From Gluconobacter frateurii (GTDB lineage Bacteria; Pseudomonadota; Alphaproteobacteria; Acetobacterales; Acetobacteraceae): a stretch of DNA of 64,000 nucleotides. A program made the translations under genes and the position numbers. The stretch's first letter is position 1. Each line of letters starts with the position of its first letter. The notes beneath the pieces were generated by a model. The model saw nothing but the letters and a program-made list of their open reading frames with translations. It was not told the DNA's origin and searched no databases. The stretch lies in assembly GCF_002723955.1 (NCBI RefSeq), contig NZ_BEWN01000002.1, forward strand, positions 124,001 to 188,000, written 5' to 3'. Shown piece by piece: positions 5,136 to 64,000 of the stretch.

Positions 5136-6074
5136 TCAGTAGGTGTTTTCCGGACTCACTGTGTGAAACCCGTAGGTTTTGTATTCAGTCCGAACGGTAT
5201 TATTTTCTACATGGACGATCATGTAGCCCTCTGGCGTGCCGAGATGTAATCCATGCCACCAGTTTCCGCTGACAGCACCACCTGTAATGAACTGAATACC
5301 GTTATGTTCGACCTGCTCAAGAACATGGGTATGCCCTTGAAAAACAGCCAACACATTATGCCCTGCAAGCAGAGCCAGAATTTCGCGCGTATTAACGGTG
5401 CTGAGAGCCTGATGTTTAAAAAGTGACGGGCTCTCATCAGCGTAGGTATAAAACGCTGTCACCATGGGAATATGTGTGGAGATAATGATGGGCGCTCCGG
5501 CCGGCACCGTCTGAAGATAAGACTTCAGCCAGTTGACCTGACGTGCATCAAAACGCCCTTCGTAGTCACGATCCGGCGTGATGGTTACAGAGTCCAGAAC
5601 GATGAAGTGAACGCCTTTATGCTCAAAAGCATAATAGGTTTCACCAAACGCTTTCCGGAAAAAATTCTTACCAAATTCAGCATTCTGCGTTGAAGCACCA
5701 CTTTTGGTATACACGCCGAAACAGTCATGGTTACCGACTGTATGGTAAACCTTCTTGCCAAGTTCCTGCTCGGTCATGTCATACAGATCAAGGAGCTTAT
5801 GAGCGCGAGGAAGCGAGACTTCCATTGCATCATAAATATGGTCTCCTCCCTGCAAAACGAAATCCGCCTTTTCCCGTGATGCCGCACGAAATGCCATCTT
5901 GCAGCCCTTCATGGCATCCAGTTCAGGCTGAAGGTGAGTGTCCGTTATGAACAGGAACGAAAACGGTTCCTGTGTGGTCGCAGACAGAGTTTGTGCTGAA
6001 ACACCCTTGATCAAAGTAGAGGACAGAAGCGCGCCACCTGCGCCCAGAATACCGCGACGTGAAAGTGATGACAT
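5136..6074 (-). CDS. Tat-exported calcineurin-like metallophosphoesterase
   Basis: This 312-residue protein begins with a twin-arginine style signal (SLSRRGILGAGGALLSSTLI). All metal-binding motifs of the calcineurin-like phosphoesterase fold are present in order: DTH (about residue 45), GGDH (about 75), GNHD (about 116), STHIP (about 200) and GHTH (about 248). It should hydrolyse phosphomono- or phosphodiesters in the periplasm with two metal ions. It lies 37 bases downstream of a FecA-like receptor controlled by FecI/FecR homologues and is probably co-transcribed with it. That pairing suggests it processes a phosphorylated ligand imported by the receptor. The true substrate is unknown. Confidence 0.88.
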   Translation of the reverse strand: MSSLSRRGILGAGGALLSSTLIKGVSAQTLSATTQEPFSFLFITDTHLQPELDAMKGCKMAFRAASREKADFVLQGGDHIYDAMEVSLPRAHKLLDLYDMTEQELGKKVYHTVGNHDCFGVYTKSGASTQNAEFGKNFFRKAFGETYYAFEHKGVHFIVLDSVTITPDRDYEGRFDARQVNWLKSYLQTVPAGAPIIISTHIPMVTAFYTYADESPSLFKHQALSTVNTREILALLAGHNVLAVFQGHTHVLEQVEHNGIQFITGGAVSGNWWHGLHLGTPEGYMIVHVENNTVRTEYKTYGFHTVSPENTY

Positions 6075-6111
6075 GAGACTTTCCTTTCGGAAATGATGTG
6101 CAGAAAACAGA

Positions 6112-8649
6112 TCAGAAGAAGTGTTTGCTCAGGGTGAAAAACACCTGCCGTGGCGCACCCGTCTGGAGAGTCTGGTAAGTCCCACCCGGGTCACTATTCT
6201 TGAAACCTGTGGTTCCAATGCTTGAGATATATCCCTTGTCGAACAGGTTCACGACGTTGACCTGAGCTTCCAGCCCTTTGAGAATTCCCGGACGATTAAA
6301 ACGATATCCGGCGGACAGATTAAACAGAACACGTCCCGGAAGCGGAGAGTCATTCAGATAAGTGTAAAAACGACGGCTCATATACTGCCCACCAAACTGA
6401 CCCCAGATCGTCCCGTCATCATAAGCCAGCTTGAAATTTCCAATATTGCGCGGTGCGGCAACAACCTGCTTGCCTGCAATCCGCAAAATGGATCCGTCTG
6501 AATTCACGATATTATCGTTGTAATGCGCATCGTTATAGGACCACGCACCGTAGAGAGACCAGTTCCGGAAAAAGCGCCAGGTCGCTGCAGCTTCAACACC
6601 ACGGGACGTTACACTTCCGACATTTTCCAGAACGTTCTGATTCCCAACAATTACCGAACTCAGGGATGACGCAAGAAGCCTGTTTTCAAAATCAACGTAA
6701 TACCCCGTCAGAGAAGCCTGCACGCTGTCATTATGAAAGCGATAACCAAGCTCTTCCGTATTGGTTGTTTCCGGTTTCAGCTTGTTATGAATATAGGCAA
6801 AGCCTGCCTGCGTTGTCGAAAACGGGCCGGTTGAAGCAGATGCCGTAAAGGCCGACATATTCCGCGAAAAATCAGCGAAAACTTCATGATGCTTGTTGAA
6901 ACGATACAGAACACCAACCTGAGGAAGGAACCCGTTGGAGGCTGAAATCGAGGCGTTGATGGGATTGGAACTTTGCGCTGTCGCTACAGAACTATTCGAG
7001 ACCAGCGACTTGAAGCCAGCATTAATGCGCAGTTTCGGCGTAATTGACCAGCTGTCTTCCAAGTGAAACTGATAAACATGCGTGCGGAATGTGTACTGCC
7101 ATTGCACCGCAAATGGGTTCTCGTAGAAGCGCTGGAAATTTGAAGGCGTTACACCTTCCTGAAGTGGATAAAGTTTTGCGGCCTGACTGAAAAGATTGTT
7201 TTCAAACCAGAATCCAGCTTCGATCTTGTGATGCCACCGCTGATACGCAAGGCTGGTCAGCACGCCTTCGCGCTGCATACGATATTCCGTTGTTGAAACG
7301 GATAGAGGTGATCCACCCAGATTGGCAGGTGTTGGGTCATACGGATCAGACCATGTTCCCGGCCCGCGATCGTAATGACCGTAAACTGTGGTAGATCCGG
7401 TCAGATGCGGAATCAGGTGATAATCGAACTTTTCATAACCCACCATATCCTGCCGCACGCCACCACCGCGGTAATAAGTGTCGTCCGGAGATGTGTACGG
7501 AGAAGGTAGCGTTTCCCCCGCCTGATAAGCACGGGCGATCTGTTCCGCAAGCTTGTAATTGTTGCTGATATCGTCGTGATTATAGCCGAATTTCTTGATC
7601 AGACTGGTTGAGAGATCCAGATAATCATCTTCTCGCCGGTCATCAAAATCGAGATACGTTGTGGCTTTTACAGCGTCGCCCAAAGGCTGGATATATTTGA
7701 AATTAAGCTGCTGCTGCTTCTGCTGTCCCCACCCTTTCCACTTATCCGCATACTGATAATCGTAACTGGCATAGAACTTGCCGCCACCTGGTAGAATTCC
7801 GCTGTTAAGGCGAACAAAGCCACGCCACGTATTTGAGCTTCCAACTGTTCCGGAAACATCCAGTCCATAATGATCTGTTGGATCAATAGATGAAAACTGG
7901 ATTGTGCCACCGAGATTGCTGGTTGAGGCCGTTCCAAGCCCACCTGTTCCCTGAGCAAGGGTTACAGGCCCATTGTTTTCTGTCTCCAGTGCACGCCCAA
8001 TGGCCAGACCATTATTGTTACGGTACTGCATATTTCCAAGTGGAATCCCGTCCAGTGTGTAGCCAAGCTGGTCGGTGAAAAACCCGCGAATGGTAATCTG
8101 CTGTGCCCATTCATAAGCACCAAGGGGATCTGACGACTGAAAGTTCACGCCGGGAAGTTCTGACAGTGTGGCCAAAGGGGATGTGCCTGGAGCCGCCTTA
8201 TGAAGTTCAGTGCGGGAGAGAGTCTGAACCTGTCTGGACTGCCCTGCCCCCAGAACAACCATGGCCTCTTCCCTTACGGGACTGGCTTTTTCAACCGCAG
8301 GACGTGGCACTTTTCTGGGAAAAGAACCGCCAGATTTAACAGTGATCGCGCCGCTACTGGCATCGCGGGATACAATCAATCCACTATTCTGCGTCAGGCG
8401 CTGTAGGGCCTCATCAAACGTATATTTTCCGTTCAGTGCAGGCGCTGTTCGAGAGCCCATTGCAGTTTCTGAGAAGAGAATATCCTGATGACTAATCCGG
8501 GAAAGTTCAGCCAGAGAGGCTGCAAGTGACTGTGAACCAAGGTGGAGATCCAGCGCAGGAAGAGTGGCTGAAAAAGATTGTTCCGGAAGGCTTGCGAAAA
8601 AAGTCGCGGCCAGCATGGCATGCCGGAAGGATGTTCTGAGGCGAAACAT
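6112..8649 (-). CDS. TonB-dependent outer membrane receptor with N-terminal signalling domain (FecA-like)
   Basis: The start is the ATG at 8649 (MFRLRTSFRHAML), preceded by CGGAGA, giving 845 residues with a signal peptide ending near SFSA. An STN (secretin/TonB short N-terminal) domain follows (about residues 30-100: LDLHLGSQSLAASLAELSR, ALNGKYTFDEALQRL), which in FecA-type transducers contacts FecR. The plug includes TLSELPGVNFQS and TIRGFFTDQLGYTLDGIP. The C-terminal barrel ends in a typical aromatic beta strand (RQVFFTLSKHFF). The receptor both imports its ligand and signals its presence through FecR to the sigma factor upstream. The ligand is not evident; the downstream phosphoesterase hints at a phosphorylated compound rather than a plain siderophore. 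Confidence 0.9.
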   Translation of the reverse strand: MFRLRTSFRHAMLAATFFASLPEQSFSATLPALDLHLGSQSLAASLAELSRISHQDILFSETAMGSRTAPALNGKYTFDEALQRLTQNSGLIVSRDASSGAITVKSGGSFPRKVPRPAVEKASPVREEAMVVLGAGQSRQVQTLSRTELHKAAPGTSPLATLSELPGVNFQSSDPLGAYEWAQQITIRGFFTDQLGYTLDGIPLGNMQYRNNNGLAIGRALETENNGPVTLAQGTGGLGTASTSNLGGTIQFSSIDPTDHYGLDVSGTVGSSNTWRGFVRLNSGILPGGGKFYASYDYQYADKWKGWGQQKQQQLNFKYIQPLGDAVKATTYLDFDDRREDDYLDLSTSLIKKFGYNHDDISNNYKLAEQIARAYQAGETLPSPYTSPDDTYYRGGGVRQDMVGYEKFDYHLIPHLTGSTTVYGHYDRGPGTWSDPYDPTPANLGGSPLSVSTTEYRMQREGVLTSLAYQRWHHKIEAGFWFENNLFSQAAKLYPLQEGVTPSNFQRFYENPFAVQWQYTFRTHVYQFHLEDSWSITPKLRINAGFKSLVSNSSVATAQSSNPINASISASNGFLPQVGVLYRFNKHHEVFADFSRNMSAFTASASTGPFSTTQAGFAYIHNKLKPETTNTEELGYRFHNDSVQASLTGYYVDFENRLLASSLSSVIVGNQNVLENVGSVTSRGVEAAATWRFFRNWSLYGAWSYNDAHYNDNIVNSDGSILRIAGKQVVAAPRNIGNFKLAYDDGTIWGQFGGQYMSRRFYTYLNDSPLPGRVLFNLSAGYRFNRPGILKGLEAQVNVVNLFDKGYISSIGTTGFKNSDPGGTYQTLQTGAPRQVFFTLSKHFF

Positions 8650-8740
8650 GAGCGGGTCTCCGAAGCATAAAGCCGCAATAGGTGTCTGCTTCGTTGACGA
8701 ATGGGATGCGCGTGCCCTCAGTGGAAAATGATCGTTGTCA

Positions 8741-9643
8741 TTAAAGCTTAACGATCTCGATGGTCTGACCAAATGTCGCGCGAACAGGCAGGAAATTTTC
8801 CAGCAGGCGCGCAAAGGTCTCGTTCTGCCCGAAATGATAGAAACCGGAGATGCGCAGGTTCGCAGCGGATGCTGAAATCTCCAGTTTGCGCCGTGCATAC
8901 CGGTTCATTTCATCGGCGGCTTCACTTAAGGGCGTATTCCGGAAGGACAGTCGGCCGCTCCGCCAGGCTAAAATATCATCCAGGGACGGACGATCAATGA
9001 GCAGACGATTATCTGGCAAAATCGTCGCCCGCTCTCCTTCCACGAGAGCCTGGACTCCGCCCATGGCGGGATGTGCGAGAGCTGCTCTCCCTTTCAGCAC
9101 TGTTATTGAACTTTTCAGCGAAGATTTAGAAAAATTAAAATTTCCGGACGATAACGAAATCTTCCACTGATCTATCTCTACTGTGTTTCGATTTCCCATA
9201 AGACGGGAAGTGATTTCAGCCTGCCCGTATAATAGATCCAGGATGTTGTTCTGTTCTCTGGCAGCGACAGAACTGTCACTATCAAGCAAAATAGTCAGTG
9301 CGCGTGAAATCGTGAATTTCTTCTGCTGACCTGTCCCGGTCACGCGTATTGTCGCCTCTGCCGGGTTCGGGAGAACCGCAAGGGAACCAACGGCCAGAGC
9401 AACGGCACCAGTAATAATTTTTCGGCGGCTTAAATTAGAGGGAATAACGTCAGATGCTGATTGCCCTGAAGACACCCTTGAAGCTCCAGAGGCCTGCCAT
9501 ATCGTAGAAACAAGGTCATAGGCCTGAGCCTGGGCAGAGCTTTTATGATACCAGATCTTAAAATTCTGACGTTCCTGATCCGAGCAGTCTGGAGCATGAA
9601 GACGTGCGAACCACTCGGCTGCCGTATCGTGAAGGGAGGACAT
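8741..9643 (-). CDS. FecR-family anti-sigma/sigma regulator
   Basis: A 300-residue protein with FecR architecture. The N-terminal cytoplasmic anti-sigma part has the typical AAEWFARLHAPDCSDQERQNF...W pattern. Then comes a single membrane segment (about residues 73-98) preceded by SRRKI, a twin-arginine feature reported for some FecR proteins. The periplasmic FecR domain includes VEIDQWKISLSSGNF and VEGERATILPD, and the C-terminal DUF4974-like part includes WRSGRLSFRNTPLSEAADEMNRY. It relays receptor occupancy to the sigma factor. The gene starts five bases after the sigma factor stop and is followed by the receptor. Confidence 0.9.
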   Translation of the reverse strand: MSSLHDTAAEWFARLHAPDCSDQERQNFKIWYHKSSAQAQAYDLVSTIWQASGASRVSSGQSASDVIPSNLSRRKIITGAVALAVGSLAVLPNPAEATIRVTGTGQQKKFTISRALTILLDSDSSVAAREQNNILDLLYGQAEITSRLMGNRNTVEIDQWKISLSSGNFNFSKSSLKSSITVLKGRAALAHPAMGGVQALVEGERATILPDNRLLIDRPSLDDILAWRSGRLSFRNTPLSEAADEMNRYARRKLEISASAANLRISGFYHFGQNETFARLLENFLPVRATFGQTIEIVKL

Positions 9644-9648
9644 AAACC

Positions 9649-10131
9649 TTAATCCAGAAGTCTTTTGGTCAGGAAAGCCAGAGCCTTGCTGATATGTTTT
9701 TCTACATTGCTAACTGAGCAACCGAAGCGTTTTGCAATCTGGGCATAAGAAAGATCTTCAACCCGGTGAAGCAGAAATATTTCCCGGGTTCGGACATCAA
9801 GATCTCTTATGGCTTCTTCCAGTATGTCCAGACGCTGACGCGACATAACCGTTTCAACAGGCGTGGGACCATTACACGGAAATTCTTTTATATCCTCGTC
9901 TTCAATGAAAGACAGCGGGCCATTCCGCTCTCGGCGGCCTGTATCATGGGCCGTATTCTGAGCCGTTCTGACAAGATAAGCCTCCACATTCCGGATATTG
10001 GACGGTTTGAGCTCCAGCAGCTTGAGAAAAGCGGACTGAAGCAGATCCTCCGAATCCCTGCGCCCTGTCCGTCGCTGAATCCTTATTGAAAGGAGCGACC
10101 AGCATGACTGGGATTTAACCCATTCAGTCAT
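9649..10131 (-). CDS. ECF sigma factor, FecI family
   Basis: A 160-residue extracytoplasmic-function sigma factor. Region 2 is seen in GRRDSEDLLQSAFLKLLE and VEAYLVRTAQNTAHDTGRR. Region 4 is seen in LDVRTREIFLLHRVEDLSYAQIAKRFGCSVSNVEKHISKAL, a clear helix-turn-helix. It should direct RNA polymerase to the promoter of the downstream receptor genes when released by FecR. The start is the ATG at 10131. No Fur box was recognised upstream, so whether iron controls it is unclear. Confidence 0.9.
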   Translation of the reverse strand: MTEWVKSQSCWSLLSIRIQRRTGRRDSEDLLQSAFLKLLELKPSNIRNVEAYLVRTAQNTAHDTGRRERNGPLSFIEDEDIKEFPCNGPTPVETVMSRQRLDILEEAIRDLDVRTREIFLLHRVEDLSYAQIAKRFGCSVSNVEKHISKALAFLTKRLLD

Positions 10132-10692: not shown

Positions 10693-11304
10693 TTAGGTCA
10701 GAAGTGCATTCTCTACTCTCAAGGCCTCCAGAAGAGGAAGGCGTTGTAACCCGAGAACAGCATCATGATCGCCGCAAATGCTCGAGAACAGCTGAACTCC
10801 AGGTCCTTCCAGCCGATAAGCTCCTACACATCCAAGAAGTGTCTCTCCTTCGCGCTCGAGATAGGCCTCCAGAAACATATCCGAAAACAGTCGCATGGTC
10901 AGTTCCGGGACAGCCAGATTACCCCAGATCTTTCGGGTCCCACGATAAAGCACCACCGCCGTCTGAAGACGGTGCGTGCGCCCCCTAAGTCTTTTGAGAT
11001 GGTTTCGGGCCTCTTCCAGAGTCTTTGGCTTTGCAAAGGCCTCCCCATCGAGATCAAGGATTTGGTCTGCCGCGATAATCAGATCCGTTTCTTTTCCCGA
11101 TGCCGCCGACCTGACTGCTTTGGCTTCTGCCAGTGTCAACGCAGTCTCACCCAATGATTTTCCCTCTGCCTCACACGTCTGTCTCAGACTTTCCTCATCT
11201 ATATCGACAGGACGAAGTTGAATCGTCAGACCGCTTTCCTCCAGAAGTACTCGCCGGGCAAACGATCCGCTCGCGAGAATCAATGAAGTACTCAGTGTGG
11301 TCAT
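10693..11304 (-). CDS. Maf family nucleotide pyrophosphatase, YceF-like
   Basis: The start is taken at the ATG at 11304 (MTTLSTSLILASGSFARR), giving 203 residues. The Maf fold shows in LILASGSFARRVLLEESGL, IIAADQILDLDG and FAKPKTLEEARNHLKRLRGRTH. The A-A-D-Q segment matches the YceF subgroup (G-S-D-Q), reported to hydrolyse m7GTP. The second Maf in this window (43835-44482) has G-A-D-T, typical of the YhdE dTTP/UTP subgroup. Maf proteins remove modified or canonical nucleotides from the pool. The gene points away from the presumed origin, with hemE on the other side; maf next to hemE and the origin recalls Caulobacter. Confidence 0.88.
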   Translation of the reverse strand: MTTLSTSLILASGSFARRVLLEESGLTIQLRPVDIDEESLRQTCEAEGKSLGETALTLAEAKAVRSAASGKETDLIIAADQILDLDGEAFAKPKTLEEARNHLKRLRGRTHRLQTAVVLYRGTRKIWGNLAVPELTMRLFSDMFLEAYLEREGETLLGCVGAYRLEGPGVQLFSSICGDHDAVLGLQRLPLLEALRVENALLT

Positions 11305-11658
11305 AAGATGCGACTCCAAACTATCGACGGCATGTGTCTGTGCGAGTACTGCGTATGACCCGGTGAAAAGATTGTGTCAGTACTGGGGTACATGGGGACA
11401 GTACTCGGAGTCCCCGAATGAGGTACCGAGTACCGTGGATTGTTGGGTACACCCTTCGAAACTGGGGGTTGTACACAGGGGGTCTGTGAGTAAAACGGGA
11501 TAGAATCCTGAGCCCCTTGCATCGCTGCGGTTTTCGGAGTTGTACACAGTGTGAGTAAGACGGGGTACATTTTTAGAAAGCCGGGTACCCCAGTATCCAC
11601 AGGGATCATCCTATCCTCCAGGATTTCTTTCTTTTTTCTTTCATGGTTAGTGAGCGGC
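11305..11658. other. Probable chromosomal replication origin (oriC) between maf and hemE
   Basis: This 354-base gap separates divergent maf and hemE. It contains five sequences with one mismatch to the DnaA box TTATNCACA: TTGTACACA at 11469-11477 and 11540-11548, GTATCCACA at 11593-11601, and the inverted form TGTGAGTAA at 11485-11493 and 11550-11558. The first four form two copies of a direct repeat, each a pair of facing boxes. GTAC occurs 11 times in 243 bases. A pyrimidine/AT-rich stretch follows at about 11630-11646. In Caulobacter the origin lies beside hemE, with maf close by. Most genes left of this point are on the minus strand and most on the right up to 32 kb are on the plus strand, as expected of leading-strand bias. 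Origin function is inference. Confidence 0.65.
11346..11588. repeat. GTAC tetranucleotide cluster and direct repeat inside the presumed origin
   Basis: GTAC begins at 11346, 11380, 11388, 11401, 11423, 11430, 11447, 11471, 11542, 11565 and 11585. About one would be expected by chance in this length. Several sit in GGTACC, GGGTAC or AGTACT contexts. A direct repeat with core GTTGTACACAG...TGTGAGTAA(A/G)ACGGG is present at 11468-11500 and 11539-11565. The meaning of the GTAC array is unknown; a binding motif for an origin-associated protein is possible. Confidence 0.7.
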
Positions 11659-12708
11659 ATGAATTCGGAAAACGCACCCCTCTCCCCGTCCCCCAAACCG
11701 CTGCTCAGAGCGCTCAAAGGTGAAGCTGTCTGGCCACCGCCAGTCTGGCTTATGCGACAGGCTGGCCGGTATCTTCCCGAATTCCGAGCCATGCGGGACA
11801 AAGCTGATTTTCTCACCCGCTGCATGACACCCGACATGGCGGAAGAACTGACGATTCAGCCCATTCGCCGCTACGGAATGGATGGGGCCATCCTGTTTTC
11901 CGACATTCTGATTCTGCCTTGGGCGATGGGCCAATCTCTTGAATTCATTGAAGGTCGAGGACCAGTTCTCGGAGCGATTCGGTCTGCGGCGGACCTGGAC
12001 CGGCTGGACCCGAGACGCGTACTGGACGCCACTGCTCCCGTTCGGGAGACCTTGTCCCGACTGAGTAAATCCCTTCCCGATGTCACGACTTTGCTAGGTT
12101 TTGCTGGCAGCCCTTTCACGGTGGCGTGCTACATGGTCGAGGGCGGTGGATCGCGCGATTTCGCGACGACCCGGCGGATGATGCAGACCGAACCTGCTCT
12201 TTTTGATCGGCTGATTGAAACTCTTACAGTCAGTACCGCAGACATGCTCTGTGGGCAGATCGAGGCAGGCGCAGAAGCCGTAATGCTGTTTGATTCCTGG
12301 GCGGGAATTCTGCCTCCGTCGGCTTTTAGGCGCTATGTTATCGAACCAACCCGACAGATCGTGCGTCATATCCGGGAGAAGCATCCCGGGACGCCAATTA
12401 TCGGCTTCCCGCGTTTGGGAGGAATCATGGTTCGGGAATATGCAGAAAAGACAGGCGTGAATACGCTGGCTCTGGATACGGTGGCAGATCCCGCCCAGAT
12501 TGCAGAGCTGGTACCAGACATCACTCTGCAGGGTAATTTGGATCCAATGGTGCTTTTTTCCGGCGGAGACACCATGGTACGTGAAGCACAGGCCATCCGG
12601 GATGCTCTGAAGGGTCGACCTCATGTATTCAATCTGGGACACGGAGTCATGCAGCACACGCCTCCTGAAAATGTTGGAGCTCTGGTGGAAGCCGTGAGGG
12701 CCGTATGA
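11659..12708 (+). CDS. hemE: Uroporphyrinogen decarboxylase
   Basis: The start is the ATG at 11659 (MNSENAPLSPSPKPLLRALKG), which gives 349 residues, normal for the family; upstream in-frame codons translate origin sequence. The two UroD signatures are present: PVWLMRQAGRYLPEF (about residues 28-42) and the segment LLGFAGSPFTVACYMVEGG. HemE removes four acetate carboxyls from uroporphyrinogen III to make coproporphyrinogen III in the cytosol. It heads a tight operon with a HAD phosphatase (ATGA overlap) and hemJ, and borders the presumed origin as in other Alphaproteobacteria. Confidence 0.96.
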   Translation: MNSENAPLSPSPKPLLRALKGEAVWPPPVWLMRQAGRYLPEFRAMRDKADFLTRCMTPDMAEELTIQPIRRYGMDGAILFSDILILPWAMGQSLEFIEGRGPVLGAIRSAADLDRLDPRRVLDATAPVRETLSRLSKSLPDVTTLLGFAGSPFTVACYMVEGGGSRDFATTRRMMQTEPALFDRLIETLTVSTADMLCGQIEAGAEAVMLFDSWAGILPPSAFRRYVIEPTRQIVRHIREKHPGTPIIGFPRLGGIMVREYAEKTGVNTLALDTVADPAQIAELVPDITLQGNLDPMVLFSGGDTMVREAQAIRDALKGRPHVFNLGHGVMQHTPPENVGALVEAVRAV

Positions 12709-56983: not shown

Positions 56984-57255
56984 GTGTGACGGAAGACACC
57001 GTGCTGTCTTTTGCGCGCGGTCATCGCCTTCAACAGGACCTCGTCCGGGATCTCTGGCTCGTCCAGGCTCCCGAGAAGGCTTTTATTATCGAAGGTGCCG
57101 CCCCACATATCCTGGGTCTCGTGGACGGGGAACGGACTGTTAGCAGTATCATTGAGACGCTGACAGGACAGTTCTCCGCCCCGCGTGAGGTCATCTCCGC
57201 GGATGTTCTCGCGCTTCTTTCTGATTTGACGGAAAAGGGCGTTCTTCGCGCATGA
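56980..57255 (+). CDS. pqqD: PqqA-binding chaperone PqqD
   Basis: 91 residues from the ATG at 56980 ([24 protein letters not shown]). The family pattern is [36 protein letters not shown] and the end [16 protein letters not shown]. PqqD is a RiPP recognition element that holds PqqA for PqqE. It is separate here, not fused to pqqC or pqqE as in some bacteria. It overlaps both neighbours by four bases. Confidence 0.96.
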
Positions 57256-58319
57256 CCCTGCCCCAGCCTCCGATGAGCCTTCTGGCCGAGCTGACCCATC
57301 GTTGCCCGCTTGCGTGCCCCTATTGCTCTAATCCTCTGGATCTTGAACGCAAATCGGCGGAACTCGATACGGCTGGATGGCGGCGGGTGCTTGAACAGGC
57401 AGCGGAGATGGGCGTTCTGCAAGTCCATTTTTCCGGTGGAGAGCCAATGGCGCGGCCGGATCTGGTTGAACTGGTTACGTTGGCGAGGAAGCTGAACCTT
57501 TACACCAATCTCATCACATCCGGTGTTCTGCTGGATGCCAACAAACTGGATGCTCTGGATAAAGCGGGTCTGGATCATATCCAGCTTTCATTTCAGGATG
57601 TCACGGAAGAAGGCGCTGAGCGCATCGGCGGCCTGAAAGGGGCGCAGGAGCGCAAATTGAAGGCGGCCCGACTGATTCAGGCTTCCGGTATTCCGATGAC
57701 GTTGAACTTCGTCGTCCATCGGGAAAATGTGGCCCGGATTCCGCAGATGTTTGAGCTGGCCCGTGAGCTGAAAGCTGGCCGTGTCGAAATTGCGCATACC
57801 CAATATTATGGCTGGGGCCTGAAGAACCGCGATGCTCTTTTACCTAGCCGCGAGCAGCTTGAAGAATCTACGCGGGCCGTTGAGGCCGAGCGCGCCAAAG
57901 GTGGTCTGGCCATTGATTATGTGACGCCTGATTATCACGCAGACAGGCCCAAGCCCTGCATGGGAGGGTGGGGCCAGAGGTTCGTGAATATCTCGCCATC
58001 TGGCCGGGTTCTACCGTGCCATGCAGCAGAAATCATTCCGAACGTGACGTTTCCGAATGTCCGGGATGAATCTCTGGCAGAAATCTGGAACAACTCTCGT
58101 CTGTTCAACATGTTTCGGGGAACAGAGTGGATGCCGGAAGCCTGCAGGGCGTGTGACCGCCGGGAAATCGATTGGGGTGGATGCCGTTGTCAGGCTCTGG
58201 CCCTAACAGGGGATGCCGCCAATATGGATCCGGTATGCAGCCGATCTCCTTTTCATGAGAAGGTGGAGCAGGCGCTTTATACAAATACTGTAGAAGACTT
58301 TGTTTACCGAAGAATGTAA
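57252..58319 (+). CDS. pqqE: PqqA peptide cyclase PqqE (radical SAM)
   Basis: 355 residues. The radical SAM cluster is Cys 18, 22 and 25 in [22 protein letters not shown] follows. The C-terminal SPASM cysteines lie in [26 protein letters not shown] and [20 protein letters not shown]. PqqE links Glu and Tyr of PqqA through a carbon-carbon bond, the first step of PQQ synthesis. It ends the operon. No pqqF or tldD/E-like protease gene adjoins, so peptide trimming must be encoded elsewhere. Confidence 0.97.
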
Positions 58320-58521: not shown

Positions 58522-60828
58522 TTGAAATATATTTCGCAAATTACACTTGCTGCTTTGGTTTCGTGGCCAGCTTGTAGCCTCGCAGGGGATATCCCAGCGA
58601 CTTATAAGAGTTCTACGGGAGTTGTTAGGTCCGTACTTGTGACGAGTGCTCTGAATAGTCAGAACAAGCCCCTGGTCGAAAGCTACAAAAACGCTAACGG
58701 GCAATGGGTGCCTACGACGGTAGTGGCTGAAACATGTGGTACCACAGATCTCGGAGCACCACTTGCATGTAATTTTCTTTCAACGGCCCAGACAAATGTT
58801 GCAAACGGTGTGGCTGGCTTGGATGCAAATGGCAGCGTTGTTGCCCCAATCAATACAGTTAGCTCCGTAATTGCGCATTCTTATATTGGTGCGGGATGGC
58901 TGTCGGCTTGGCAGAACTATACTGCTCGGCCCAGCTTTTCGTCCGGATGGAATAACGGGGATCCTTTTGTCTATCCCAATGTAACGCTGATTGGCGGTCA
59001 TGAAGATCATGATGATGGTTATCTGAAAGTCACAGGCTCTCCTTGGTCCATGAGTGATGCGGGGGGCGCCCTTGCTGCAATTTATGATACCGTAGGTGAT
59101 CAAGGAACGGCACGAAACGGTGCGGGGAATGATGATGCAATTTCCCTTTTTGTGGGTACACAGATTTCGCCCCCGCGCCTTCGCTTGGGACAGGACATTG
59201 TAGACAGTCTCGCAGGGGGGGATGGACTTGCTCGAACCGTTCAGTTGAGCGGAACATCCATTACTGTGACGCCTGCTTTGAACGCTGCGCAAATTAGATT
59301 GCTTCGCCAATGGATGCGCGTGTATGCCAATTATGACGCGCCAGGCGGGAATGCAAACGGCGGGAGTTTCTGGAAAAACTGGAATGGAGATATCGATAAA
59401 GGGTCGGTTTTCATTCCTAATTTGTATTATGGTTACATCCAATCATGGTCCAGCTCTTCAACATCTACAGTTTTAAGTGTTGTTAGCGATCCTTTTTCTC
59501 GGCAGTCTGGATGGAGAACAGAGAGTAGTTCAGAGACAGTCGCTACAGCTCCAGGAACAAATACTGGCGATATTATTGACTCAGCTTCTGATAGCCCCAC
59601 TTGGACTTATAAGAATCCGGCAGTTTTTATTGGATTAGCTAATAAAAAATTCAATATGAATCAGACTGTTGCTTGCCTCACTACGGAAGAGGATACGCTG
59701 TCTCGCCAGTGTGAGGGTAACGAAATTGATTTGTGGGGAGGAAATGATGCTGCTCGACGCGCTATTAATGGGCTGACAATCACCTACGGGGGCGCGCGAC
59801 CCGCAAATGGAAGCTACAACCTTAGTCTTGCGGGGGGGACGGCAAATGAGATTGTGATGGCTCCTGAGTGGTATACAACAGCTGTCCAATCCGATCCGCT
59901 GTATGTTGCACCTTTAGCAGGGCCTTCTCTGGATGTTAGTGGCGGCAATACGACGGCCGTGATGGCGTCTTTTGCTCAATCGACCAATACGGGATCAAAT
60001 ACGTTCGGGCCATATATGTATATCCGCCCGACGATCTGGACATCACGGTTCGCGTCAGATGGTTCGGGGACAGATTTTCGGAATGAAACTGTCTCTTACG
60101 GTGTTTCTGTGGGAGGCAAACGTGGCGAATTAGGCACCATTCAGGAACATATCGAACTTAATCCGCAGAGTGCAAAAAACGGAATTGGATTATGCGGATA
60201 TAATACATGTTCCTACTTTGATGCGAACGGTCAGATAATAGCGGGCGGAGACATTATTCCTGGCACCGGAAAGTCCTTATACACAACAGACGAAAATGGT
60301 TCTCGTGCTGCATATATGTTCGCAAATAACAGTTATCAAATGAATGTTGCGTTTAATTTACCTTCCGGTACGTCTGAAATTAATTCAGGTGCGCAAGGAG
60401 CGCAAACCCTTCATGTTGAAGGGGGTATCCTTGCAGATAATAATATTGTTGTTGGACCCAATAAGGCATTTGGATTCCAAGATAACCAAGGTGCTTTGAT
60501 TGGCTATGAATATCTTGTAAATGCGAGTACTTCATCCGGTGCGGAAATTCACACTGTTGTTTCGCCCAAAAACGGATTTAACGGTACATATTACGTCGAT
60601 GCGAATACGATATTAGAAAGTCTAAAAGTTACGGGAGATACAGTGACTAATGGAAGACTAAATGTTGGTACGTACAATCTCGATTCTCTTCCTTCTAGCG
60701 GTTCTACTGATGGTGCTCAGGTTTGGTGTGCTGATTGTAAACTAAATGGAATTTCGGGTGTTTTGGCTTATTGGCATGCTTCAGCATCTAAATGGACTGA
60801 TAGTCAGAACGGAGTACTAGTAAATTAA
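58522..60828 (+). CDS. Large secreted protein of unknown function with a phage-tail-like C-terminus
   Basis: A TTG at 58522 opens 768 residues; GGGAG lies about nine bases before it. A signal peptide is likely (MKYISQITLAALVSWPACSLAG). The body is rich in Ser, Thr, Asn and Gly and low in Lys/Glu, as in outer surface or fibre proteins. The stretch VANGVAGLDANGSVVAPINTV and the end SLPSSGSTDGAQVWCADCKL...VLAYWHASASKWT resemble short motifs at the ends of prophage tail proteins, but no phage genes adjoin. Cys pairs occur (C-A-D-C; C-G-Y-N-T-C). Base composition is AT-richer than pqq. It might be a surface or adhesion protein, or a tail-fibre relic put to another use. I do not recognise the family. 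Confidence 0.7.
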   Translation: MKYISQITLAALVSWPACSLAGDIPATYKSSTGVVRSVLVTSALNSQNKPLVESYKNANGQWVPTTVVAETCGTTDLGAPLACNFLSTAQTNVANGVAGLDANGSVVAPINTVSSVIAHSYIGAGWLSAWQNYTARPSFSSGWNNGDPFVYPNVTLIGGHEDHDDGYLKVTGSPWSMSDAGGALAAIYDTVGDQGTARNGAGNDDAISLFVGTQISPPRLRLGQDIVDSLAGGDGLARTVQLSGTSITVTPALNAAQIRLLRQWMRVYANYDAPGGNANGGSFWKNWNGDIDKGSVFIPNLYYGYIQSWSSSSTSTVLSVVSDPFSRQSGWRTESSSETVATAPGTNTGDIIDSASDSPTWTYKNPAVFIGLANKKFNMNQTVACLTTEEDTLSRQCEGNEIDLWGGNDAARRAINGLTITYGGARPANGSYNLSLAGGTANEIVMAPEWYTTAVQSDPLYVAPLAGPSLDVSGGNTTAVMASFAQSTNTGSNTFGPYMYIRPTIWTSRFASDGSGTDFRNETVSYGVSVGGKRGELGTIQEHIELNPQSAKNGIGLCGYNTCSYFDANGQIIAGGDIIPGTGKSLYTTDENGSRAAYMFANNSYQMNVAFNLPSGTSEINSGAQGAQTLHVEGGILADNNIVVGPNKAFGFQDNQGALIGYEYLVNASTSSGAEIHTVVSPKNGFNGTYYVDANTILESLKVTGDTVTNGRLNVGTYNLDSLPSSGSTDGAQVWCADCKLNGISGVLAYWHASASKWTDSQNGVLVN

Positions 60829-60840
60829 TTCAGAGGTTTA

Positions 60841-60871
60841 AATCGAGGGGATAAATTACATCCCCTCGATT
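60841..60871. terminator. Strong hairpin between convergent genes
   Basis: AATCGAGGGGAT and ATCCCCTCGATT form a perfect 12-bp stem with a seven-base loop, 12 bases after the stop of the secreted protein gene and 16 bases before the end of the convergent GT61 gene. It probably serves both. Confidence 0.75.
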
Positions 60872-60886
60872 GTGTTACGGGATCAT

Positions 60887-62314
60887 TTATTTTGTAGGAT
60901 GGAGTGTGAATTTTTCCCAAGATGAAGGAGAATTTCCCGTGAAATCAACGGGCGTATAGTCCCCAATTGCAGGGCTTCTCAGGTACCTACCATCATCTAG
61001 CATAATATGGGCACCGTCGATTTTGACTGCGATAGAGCGCTGTCCATCAGCTTTATCGGCAGCAAATATAGGAAAGCCAATTGAGTGATCGGCCATGATA
61101 AATGCACCGTTCTCATTCTGAATGATTTTTGCCATACAACTTATGCGGTCTTCCCCAAATGAAGAATCCGACACAATTTCACCATTATGCTTCATGATTT
61201 TGATCCACTTAGCAGCATGGTCTTGTATAAAAAATTCGTCCCCTTGTAGGGAAGATTTTTTCTCACTGGAGACGGGAATATTTTTTACCTTTATTTCCCA
61301 GCATTCAAAAACCTCGGACATAAATTTTTCTGGATTTTCTATTTTTATAGTTCTTGGGAAACCTGGCCTGCTTGGTTCGACGGAATGCATGTGTTTCGCA
61401 TAAAAATAATCGATGTCAGCGTGATTGGCCCGATCAATAGCAAAAAAAGTTTCTGTAAGTGCAGGGCCGAAATGTATTCCAACTGCTTTGGGTTTTCGAC
61501 TGAAAACACTTGTATGAAAGGCTGATCCAGAAATTCCTAATACAGGATATTTTCCAGAAAATATGGATATCTGCTCACGAATCGAAAGTCGTTCTGGAAA
61601 TATTTCTTTTACACCACGCTGGATAAGATAATCGACAATGTAATCTTCGTTATCGAGGCATAGAGACCCATAAGAAAGTTTTCTTCTGGAAAGATAAACA
61701 GGATAATCTATTTTATCTATTCCTTGGATTGCATCATCTCCCACTTGGTTACAGAAATCTGTAAATCCTGTGTAGACATAGCTGTCAGCTTCACATCCAG
61801 GATTAGGAGCATATAGAGTTTTTATTTTTATTGGAATATCAAATAAGATGATATCGTTTGGATCTATTCCAATAAGGGCTATAAGCTCACAAAACCAACT
61901 TTTTGATAGTATTTCTTCTTTTGTATAGTGTGAATGGATTAAGTATTTTTTGGGAAGTAGAAGGTTTTGTTTTATAAACCACAATCTTGATACAAAATCT
62001 AAAAGAACGTGTCCGTAATGTAGGCCAATGTATCCACAATAAACAGCAGAATCTATTTCATGATAATCCCAAAGTTGAGAAATTTTTGTTTCTCTGGGGT
62101 GAGAGCTGAGAATATTGTCTTTATGCCAGAACATTGAGCATTCGTTGACCAATCTTCCGTATCTATCAAATATGCCGAAATACCCTTGGTCCCGGTGAGG
62201 ATTTTTGGGTAAATATAAGGCATTTGGAACCACTCTAATATCCGGAAGACCTTCAATTGTGTAATCTTGGTTGTCCTTAGAGTTACTTTTGCATTTCATG
62301 GCTTCCGAGAACAT
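60887..62314 (-). CDS. GT61-like glycosyltransferase with C-terminal WExF module
   Basis: The ATG at 62314 sits seven bases after AAAGGG and gives 475 residues; the ATG at 62320 is an alternative with poor spacing. The body (about 1-330) resembles GT61/DUF563 enzymes: YCGYIGLHYGHVLLDFVSRLWF, YPVYLSRRKLSYG, DYIVDYLIQRGVKEIFPERLSIREQISIFSGKYPVLGISGSAFHTSVFS. The C-terminal part (about 365-475) contains DGRYLRSPAIGDY and ends SSWEKFTLHPTK, the module shared with three other proteins in the window. It probably adds a sugar to a surface polysaccharide. The gene is AT-rich and sits in an apparently acquired block with the GT2 gene upstream. Confidence 0.75.
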   Translation of the reverse strand: MFSEAMKCKSNSKDNQDYTIEGLPDIRVVPNALYLPKNPHRDQGYFGIFDRYGRLVNECSMFWHKDNILSSHPRETKISQLWDYHEIDSAVYCGYIGLHYGHVLLDFVSRLWFIKQNLLLPKKYLIHSHYTKEEILSKSWFCELIALIGIDPNDIILFDIPIKIKTLYAPNPGCEADSYVYTGFTDFCNQVGDDAIQGIDKIDYPVYLSRRKLSYGSLCLDNEDYIVDYLIQRGVKEIFPERLSIREQISIFSGKYPVLGISGSAFHTSVFSRKPKAVGIHFGPALTETFFAIDRANHADIDYFYAKHMHSVEPSRPGFPRTIKIENPEKFMSEVFECWEIKVKNIPVSSEKKSSLQGDEFFIQDHAAKWIKIMKHNGEIVSDSSFGEDRISCMAKIIQNENGAFIMADHSIGFPIFAADKADGQRSIAVKIDGAHIMLDDGRYLRSPAIGDYTPVDFTGNSPSSWEKFTLHPTK

Positions 62315-62481
62315 AGTCATTCCCTTTGAATTTTCTCTATGAGAAAGTTTATGTTGGACAAATTATATTACATATAAAGAATATGGCTATCAAAATTTGT
62401 ATATTTACAAACATAAATAGCGCTGCATCTGGAGCAATAATTTTTGATACAACACTATTTATGTGGAACCAAATTGATGGT

Positions 62482-63978
62482 TTAGAGAGTAATTTTTGGA
62501 GAATTTTCCATCCATTTTGGAAGTGTTATATTAAATTCCTTCGCCCATGTAATTTGTTCTTCTTGGGATCGGGAAGAGAGAAATGCGAATGCTGCATCAC
62601 TTTCTTCTGCTTGAATGTGTTCTGAATAGGATTGTGGCTGAGAAAATCTGGTTAGCTTTGCAACAGTTTCGTTAATTTCTTCGGGGAATACATCTAGGCG
62701 ATGAAAATGAATTTGTTCCCAAGCATGAATCCACTGACGATTACACTGCACTTCTCCACACTGCGTTTGGGAATCGGGAGCGAACCAGCAGATTGAGCGT
62801 CCTGAATGAGGATTGCGTAACCCCACATTAAAATTGTCGCCCTCTGCGGCTTCAATCTTCAAAGGAATAATTGTCCCGAAGCGGTCGTCAAATGGAATGT
62901 GAATAAAGTCGCTTTGTGAGACGCATGTCAGATAAAGCGTTGTCGGGTCATCTTCCACGATAATACCATAAACAGGCGTATAGCGTTCACTGTCTGCCTC
63001 TTCAGTTATACTGACCAGATTACCACTTTTTCGATCTAGGCTGGCTTTTGAAGAGTGAATGGACCTTATCTCATACACCTGAAAGTCAACCGTACCAGCA
63101 TAAGGCTTCCAAGGCTGTTTTTTCTTTATTTCGGAATAGATTGAAAGTTCGTAATTCTGGCGAATCTGACGAACAATTTTTCTGACACGGAGCAGGAAAT
63201 CATCTGCTGGCGGATCCAGCGTTTCGTTGATGTCAAAATCTTTAAAATAATTCATCGGAGTTGGCGCGTCTCGAATGTCGCTCCGTCGCTCTACTTTGTC
63301 GAGAAAGTCTGCCAGACTTCGGCAGGCATAATGGCGAACACGCGCGTTCGCCCAAGAGGGGTAGCTCTGCGTTCTTTCCGGATGAACAGCATCCCACTGC
63401 ATTTCCGTGCCATCTGAAGAAACATATAAACCCTCAACATCAAAGTGATGTGGGTTGATGTAGCGACTGCTTGTTCTGTCGAGCCGGAAAATGGATTTTA
63501 CAATCTTGTTCGCGTCGAGAGAATCAGGATGGGACCCGCGGATATAGGATTCAAAAGGAGATGAATTGGGCGGCCGGGTTATATAACCGCTGCTTCCGAA
63601 ACAGCACCAGTTTATGGCAATAGCAGAAGCCTCGGGAAATTTTTTGAGAAAAGCCGACAGATCCTGCTCTTCGCCTAGGTCTAGGTATTCGTCAGAATCC
63701 AAGAACATCAACCAATCGAACTTATTTTTGGCGTCTGAAATAGCTTTTTCGTAAGTGAATTTCTGACGGTGATTGAAGCGGATGGATTTTTCAGATGTTT
63801 CAAGCCGGACGTCAAATGACTTGGCCGCCGCTTTGACAATGTCGGCCGTTCTGTCCGTTGAGTCGTCATCGTAAACGCAGATCGTCGTGAACCCAAGGGC
63901 GATGTGCCATCCTAACCACCATGCGATATCTCGCTCTTCGTTTTTGACAAATACAGCGAGGGCTAGGCGTTCTGACAT
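62482..63978 (-). CDS. Family 2-type glycosyltransferase with C-terminal WExF module
   Basis: 498 residues. The N-terminal GT-A domain shows LAVFVKNEERDIAWWLGWHIALG, CVYDDDSTDRT and a DxD motif in WLMFLDSDEYLDLG (about residue 86). INWCCFGSSGYITRPP and YINPHHFDVEGLYV match the paralogue at 14009. Residues of about 302-426 are the shared module ending in AWEQIHFHRLD. A helical tail follows. It may act with the GT61 enzyme downstream on the same glycan; the two are 160 bases apart and in the same direction. Confidence 0.82.
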   Translation of the reverse strand: MSERLALAVFVKNEERDIAWWLGWHIALGFTTICVYDDDSTDRTADIVKAAAKSFDVRLETSEKSIRFNHRQKFTYEKAISDAKNKFDWLMFLDSDEYLDLGEEQDLSAFLKKFPEASAIAINWCCFGSSGYITRPPNSSPFESYIRGSHPDSLDANKIVKSIFRLDRTSSRYINPHHFDVEGLYVSSDGTEMQWDAVHPERTQSYPSWANARVRHYACRSLADFLDKVERRSDIRDAPTPMNYFKDFDINETLDPPADDFLLRVRKIVRQIRQNYELSIYSEIKKKQPWKPYAGTVDFQVYEIRSIHSSKASLDRKSGNLVSITEEADSERYTPVYGIIVEDDPTTLYLTCVSQSDFIHIPFDDRFGTIIPLKIEAAEGDNFNVGLRNPHSGRSICWFAPDSQTQCGEVQCNRQWIHAWEQIHFHRLDVFPEEINETVAKLTRFSQPQSYSEHIQAEESDAAFAFLSSRSQEEQITWAKEFNITLPKWMENSPKITL

Positions 63979-64000
63979 TGCTTAACTTCCTTGATCCATA

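Follow-up and report, generated by a model that had tools for sequence, protein, structure and literature searches.

A probable GTAC-rich replication origin between maf and hemE in Gluconobacter frateurii, and a methyltransferase that may mark it

We analyzed a 64,000-nucleotide stretch of the Gluconobacter frateurii genome, here called the window (G000:C2:124001-188000 in an assembly of 3.31 Mb and 10 contigs). Positions are those of the window unless a contig is named. Within it, maf and hemE point away from each other across a non-coding gap of 354 bp, the ATG of maf ending at 11304 on the minus strand and that of hemE lying at 11659. A first-pass annotation of the sequence had described such a gap between divergent genes and had proposed it as the chromosomal origin, and the start positions of both genes bear out its description. 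The nearest named relatives of HemE are the proteins of Gluconobacter japonicus and G. thailandicus (94% each), and that of Maf belongs to G. thailandicus (90%). The two genes are divergent in all 80 relatives that we compared. The strand bias reported around the gap was seen between 5.1 and 16.6 kb: among gene-like open reading frames (ORFs) picked by hand, 5/5 on the left (from 5.1 kb) are on the minus strand and 5/5 on the right (to 16.6 kb) on the plus strand, and minus-strand ORFs reappear at 16.7 to 18.8 kb. The features of the locus are collected in Table 1.

Table 1. Features of the maf-hemE locus and the candidate methyltransferase gene
Feature	Position	Strand	Basis or remark
maf, flanking gene	10693..11304	-	Pfam Maf match
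Two further GTACs, maf start	11247 and 11288		Outside the gap
Very probable oriC in the non-coding gap that separates maf from hemE	11305..11658		Gene starts, relatives, skew
GTAC array, 11 sites	11346..11588		Starts at 11346, 11380, 11388, 11401, 11423, 11430, 11447, 11471, 11542, 11565, 11585
Conserved block AGTACTGGGGTACATGGGGACAGTAC	11379..11404	+	29-sequence alignment
Conserved block GTACCGAGTACCGTGGA	11423..11439	+	Alignment; GAGTC replaces GAGTAC in L053 and L056
DnaA box TTGTACACA, contains GTAC	11469..11477	+	GTAC column in 29/29 aligned sequences
DnaA box TTACTCACA (TGTGAGTAA on the plus strand)	11485..11493	-	At this place shared with L002 and L003 only
DnaA box TTGTACACA, contains GTAC	11540..11548	+	GTAC column in 28/29 aligned sequences
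DnaA box TTACTCACA (TGTGAGTAA on the plus strand)	11550..11558	-	One mismatch
Conserved marker GGGGTACATTT-N10-GGGTACC, for genome surveys	11562..11589	+	Marker search
DnaA box GTATCCACA, adjoins T-rich tract	11593..11601	+	One mismatch
T-rich, AT-rich tract, proposed unwinding element	11620..11649		Composition; putative function
hemE, flanking gene	11659..12708	+	Named from relatives and the first-pass annotation
MT2, solitary methyltransferase gene, 276 aa	G000:C1:670749-671576		Outside the window

To the left of maf, the minus strand at 5136-10131 encodes a sigma-70 region 4 protein, a DUF4880 protein, a TonB-dependent receptor and a phosphoesterase, a group reminiscent of FecI/FecR-type iron regulation. 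The GC content drops to 0.38 to 0.43 at the far end (60000-64000), where two glycosyltransferase-like genes (families 61 and 2/92) lie on the minus strand; next to them, a 768-aa ORF (58522-60828) has no Pfam match. A Radical SAM/SPASM gene at 57252-58319 is, judged by eye, presumably PqqE of PQQ synthesis.

The gap contains five DnaA boxes within 133 bp, all at the positions given by the first-pass annotation. Each differs by one mismatch from TTATNCACA, and no perfect box is present in the gap. Dinucleotide shuffling of the gap (1,000 shuffles) gave 0.24 boxes on average and never more than 3. One-mismatch boxes are not unusually frequent in the window as a whole (44 versus 35.4 expected), and it is therefore their clustering that counts. 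In 482 kb sampled from the same genome, the gap was the sole cluster of five boxes in 150 bp, the best cluster elsewhere having two; of the 6 copies of the word TTGTACACA in the entire genome, 2 are in the gap. Four of the boxes had been described as two copies of a facing pair. Both facing pairs are present, but with start-to-start spacings of 16 and 10 they are not exact copies. Among the 80 relatives, only L002 and L003 have TGTGAGTAA at the first pair, and at the position of the last box (11593) most other genera carry TCATCCACA, TGATCCACA and the like. The adjoining tract is the sole 30-base stretch of the gap with more than 70% AT.

The earlier account of the gap overlooked its array of GTAC palindromes. 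There are 11 GTACs in the 354 bp, a density 22 times that of the sampled genome (1.40 per kb), and 13 between 11247 and 11598, including two inside the start of maf. None of 5,000 dinucleotide shuffles of the gap reached 11 (mean, 2.0; maximum, 7), and the densest other 350 bp in the sampled genome held 5. In the whole genome we counted 22 GTAC triples, 7 of which are inside the gap, compared to 717 for the control word. The array is widespread: 69 of 81 gaps (the window and 80 relatives) have at least 6 GTACs, and most hold 11 to 15. In these 69 gaps, which were chosen for having at least 6 GTACs (the 12 below 6 being dropped), GTAC reaches 8.4 times its composition expectation, and the next of the 16 palindromic tetramers reaches 1.64 times. 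None of the 69 contains a perfect DnaA box. For surveys of complete genomes, we used a conserved marker. In a sample of the class, GGGGTACRTTT-N10-GGGTACC was found in 4/5 family members and 0/380 others; with N and one mismatch allowed, it was found in 36/160 family genomes, lying less than 2 kb from hemE in 32 of the 36 and 20 to 26 kb away in the other four. A tandem GTACT repeat was also seen, at G531:C1:536876-536914.

We placed the origin by GC skew. Over 104 contiguous kb, the cumulative G-C minimum falls at 11272, 33 bases to the left of the gap. Sampled 20-kb stretches of the same contig (C2) had skews of -0.04 to -0.16 on the left and of +0.02 to +0.14 on the right, as far as 730 kb, and the gap was the only switch from negative to positive among the stretches of C2 examined. 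The first-pass annotation had proposed a skew minimum over the full genome as a check, and in the 482 kb that we sampled the skew switch of C2 agrees with it. Relatives gave a more varied picture. In G431 and G476 the skew has opposite signs on the two sides of the element. The switch misses the element by 20 to 60 kb in two others: in G443 it lies 20 to 40 kb away, and in G. diazotrophicus PA1 5 the skew is still negative some 55 kb past the element. The skew of G463 and G540 is so weak that no switch could be placed.

An origin near dnaA has a precedent in this group, since the available text on Acetobacter pasteurianus 386B describes a prediction there by skew and Ori-Finder (PMC3751514). 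In our genome dnaA lies on another contig (C4), where no lasting skew change was detected over the 20 kb around it, no box cluster exceeded two in 150 bp, and only 2 GTACs occurred in the 500 bp upstream, so that the second GTAC cluster expected there by analogy with E. coli was likewise rejected. Moreover, A. pasteurianus itself carries the array at maf/hemE (L062; 15 GTACs). On the skew, box and GTAC evidence from C4, we rejected a dnaA-linked origin, which we consider scarcely credible.

The strongest test came from Bombella. The Bombella group, Saccharibacter 17.LH.SD and the metagenome-assembled genome L031 together account for 12 loci whose maf-hemE gap holds 0 to 2 GTACs and lacks the array. 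Our initial idea, that Bombella had lost the array, was wrong: searching the whole genomes showed that it had moved. The same element, with the full array, was found elsewhere in at least 5 of the 12 genomes. In B. apis, B. intestini, B. favorum and B. mellum it lies 23 to 32 kb from hemE; in B. apis the distance is 25 kb, and the element is flanked by a GMC oxidoreductase gene and a gluconate-2-dehydrogenase-subunit-3-like gene, past which lies rho. In these four genomes the skew minimum is less than 1 kb from the element and 23 to 32 kb from hemE. The minimum and the element are, respectively, at 228968 and 228163-228370 in G010, at 224529 and 224029-224236 in G007, at 225779 and 225279-225486 in G011, and at 242152 and 241335 onward in G009. 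This displacement is a natural experiment that separates the origin from its flanking genes. It also bears on whether the gap is merely where the divergent promoters of maf and hemE lie. The gap does lie between divergent genes in 80/80 relatives, as a promoter region would, but in Bombella maf and hemE remain adjacent and divergent without the element, while the element and the skew minimum are 23 to 32 kb away. On this displacement we rejected the promoter-only explanation, whose probability we regard as negligible.

The position of the origin thus rests on skew, on conservation and on relocation. As proposed earlier, the gap was compared across acetic acid bacteria, and its boxes and blocks are kept. 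Together with the skew switch at the gap and the relocated element in Bombella, this supports the first-pass reading, and we conclude that the gap is very probably the chromosomal replication origin, oriC.

We aligned 29 of the 81 gaps. The GTACs of the two TTGTACACA boxes are kept in 29/29 and 28/29 sequences, while the facing pairs are only partly kept. Nine GTAC columns are kept in 25 to 29 of the 29 sequences, and the bases that flank them differ from site to site (A_T, G_A, C_C, A_C, T_A and G_C; one column varies freely). The aligned gaps contain 359 GTAC sites, many of them in 27 further, less conserved columns. Some positions turn over, while the number of sites is steady at 11 to 15 in most acetic acid relatives. 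Four-base cores conserved in differing flanks would be expected if the sites were targets of methylation, not longer sites for a protein.

The gap could also be oriC with GTACs that form the core of protein binding sites, for a weak mode of DnaA binding or for another regulator, and with no connection to a methyltransferase. Several GTACs do lie within longer words (GGGGTACA, GGGTACCCC and TTGTACACAG) kept in nearly all of the 29 sequences, and two of them fall in DnaA boxes. Against such binding sites, the conserved sites have only GTAC in common, their outer bases being different, and the number stays at 11 to 15 in most relatives despite the turnover of positions. The distribution of the candidate enzyme described below cuts both ways, as its gene is present in 36/36 array genomes and also in many genomes without the array. 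We regard this explanation as a serious one, although clearly short of an even chance. A different proposal, that GTAC clustering is a by-product of an old restriction-modification system or a DNA-structure effect with no role in initiation, is improbable. Restriction sites are often under-represented, and GTAC is mildly rare in the sampled genome (observed/expected, 0.74). The gap, however, opposes this genome trend 22-fold, and the array is kept across genera and travels with the origin in Bombella.

Three genes of the genome encode N6_N4_Mtase (PF01555) proteins: a CcrM-like gene, which scores 632 bits to the CcrM model, below its cut-off of 830; a plasmid-type gene; and a third, which we call MT2. 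MT2 overlaps mltA by 4 bases and is surrounded by hemC, hemD, secB, a Tim44-like gene, mltA, a di-haem peroxidase gene, an Smr gene and hemF; no restriction gene was found among the neighbors scanned. An orthologue (62 to 99%) was found in 30/30 named genomes searched, chosen from the 80 relatives. MT2 is a beta-class N6_N4_Mtase; its catalytic motifs TSPPY and DPFxGxGT are present in 60/60 loci, with 91 residues invariant. We take the SPPY motif to point to an N4-cytosine enzyme; the best PDB match by sequence is CcrM, an adenine enzyme, and all matches in an NCBIfam scan were under cut-off. Relatives of MT2 also occur on two Paracoccus plasmids (49 to 51%). Its closest phage relatives (records H8-H18, including Synechococcus phages ACG-2014f and Syn19) are cyanophage methylases (43 to 45%) and one from an uncultured phage (48%). 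These plasmid and phage relatives gave no clue to its specificity.

MT2 (E < 1e-40) was detected in 73/160 family genomes, including all 36 array genomes. This co-occurrence has a p value of 1e-15 when kinship is ignored, and shared ancestry explains much of it. The other 37 MT2-positive genomes lack the array pattern. We scanned the 900 bases before hemE in 400-base windows in 34 of these 37 (hemE was not found or its place not listed in three) and in 60 of the 87 MT2-negative genomes. The median GTAC maximum was 1.5 in the former and 0 in the latter. At least 5 GTACs in 400 bp were present in 5/34 and 0/60, respectively, so GTAC-rich origins were seen only with MT2. Outside the acetic acid group, GTACs are few upstream of hemE in most genomes with MT2; one of the array-negative genomes, G557, has 17 GTAC triples in 7.4 Mb and none at hemE. 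A single GTAC beside the last box was tried as a sign of MT2 and is not diagnostic, being present in 25/34 genomes with MT2 but also in 19/60 without it.

Three genomes, G268, G447 and G531, have no marker, no dense GTAC cluster at hemE and no MT2. A HemE tree of 49 rows places them with Gluconobacter and Bombella (support, 97/99), as sister to Bombella with weak support (87/58). The joint absence of array and MT2 among carriers is suggested by one gene tree that includes two rows of odd composition. G268 (L316) has 14 perfect TTATNCACA boxes in the 900 bases upstream of hemE, and its origin is very different from those of array-bearing relatives.

The gene position of MT2 also varies. In 20 genomes MT2 and hemE are on one contig. 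They are less than 10 kb apart in five of these (G480, G428, G524, G482 and G557), none of which has the array marker; in G482, the order secB-tim44-mltA-MT2-smr-maf-gap-hemE spans about 13 kb. In the other 15, the distance is at least 0.6 Mb in contig coordinates (0.6 to 2.0 Mb in array genomes), and it would be about 137 kb in G515 and G571 if their contigs are circular. Some relatives carry the CcrM-type motif. In the outlying relatives L053 and L056, GAGTC stands in two alignment positions that are GTAC in most of the others. Among MT2-negative genomes, the 400 bases upstream of hemE contain 13 GANTC in L297/G421, 12 in L334/G517, 11 in L310/G454, 10 in L344/G536 and 9 in L318/G475.

Origins linked to hemE are known from Caulobacter, Rickettsia and Wolbachia, as described in the accessible part of PMC1914354. 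The gap resembles the Caulobacter crescentus origin, Cori, in lying beside hemE, in its several DnaA boxes and in its length of a few hundred bases (PMC1914354, same part). Unlike Cori, it has maf rather than COG1806 as its other neighbor, its boxes are all one mismatch from TTATNCACA, and it has 11 GTAC and 3 GANTC; GANTC sites are reported at the Caulobacter origin in the text available from PMC3973325. It also differs in having no CtrA or IHF site within one mismatch: the gap contains no TTAA at all and no IHF consensus within one mismatch. This excludes a Caulobacter-type control, not an origin. The gap is very probably a further hemE-linked origin, without CtrA and IHF sites.

Two methylation systems tied to origins are Dam/GATC and CcrM/GANTC (PMC10073500 and PMC3973325, available portions). 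E. coli oriC has 11 GATC; like the gap, it repeats a 4-base palindrome eleven times over a short stretch, with some of the copies in initiator boxes (PMC10073500, in the part seen). The gap has GTAC instead of GATC, the candidate enzyme is a beta-class N6_N4_Mtase and not Dam, and the genome lacks the palindrome cluster before dnaA, where E. coli has GATC. MT2 is like CcrM in being solitary, in its Pfam family and in being kept across the lineage. It differs in that the genome has CcrM and MT2 as separate genes and that array genomes show GTAC, with the two outliers L053 and L056 showing both marks. The literature we could consult, which covers few subscription papers, mentioned neither GTAC arrays at origins nor GTAC methylomes of acetic acid bacteria. 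The conserved GTAC cluster may point to a methylation control of the origin unlike those of E. coli and Caulobacter.

According to our model, the GTACs of oriC are marked by MT2 and act in the manner of Dam/GATC or CcrM/GANTC. We give this model about an even chance, and the link between MT2 and GTAC may equally well hold as not. Counting against the model are the 37 MT2-positive genomes without the array pattern, the lack of a GTAC cluster before dnaA and the presence of CcrM in the same genome; moreover, MT2 was close to hemE only where the array marker was missing. DnaA would bind the five boxes at 11469-11601 and, judging from the anatomy of the gap, would open the T-rich tract beside the last of them. 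The eleven palindromes would be the target of MT2, and the array would be half-methylated after every round of replication. Until remethylation, the half-methylated array would hold off DnaA or another reader. Since both TTGTACACA boxes contain GTAC, half-methylation could delay re-initiation directly or via such a reader.

We propose more tentatively, at slightly under even chances, that acetic acid bacteria have a further methylation-marked origin system in which MT2 took over from CcrM. An ancestral MT2, which in some deep family members is still with secB-tim44-mltA-smr a few kilobases from the origin, would have replaced CcrM. GANTC sites at the origin would have been replaced by GTAC, the array would have grown from a few to 11 to 15 sites, and DnaA boxes would have been tuned to contain GTAC. 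Where MT2 was lost, the array would have been lost too and the origin rebuilt, as suggested by the 14 perfect boxes of G268.

These results very probably settle where replication starts in industrially used bacteria whose origin had earlier been put at another place, next to dnaA in the case of A. pasteurianus. A candidate enzyme, the sites and natural losers of both are now named. If the model is true, GTAC would be a third such mark that took the place of GANTC inside a single family, and one could ask whether methylation itself matters at origins, rather than one enzyme or reader.
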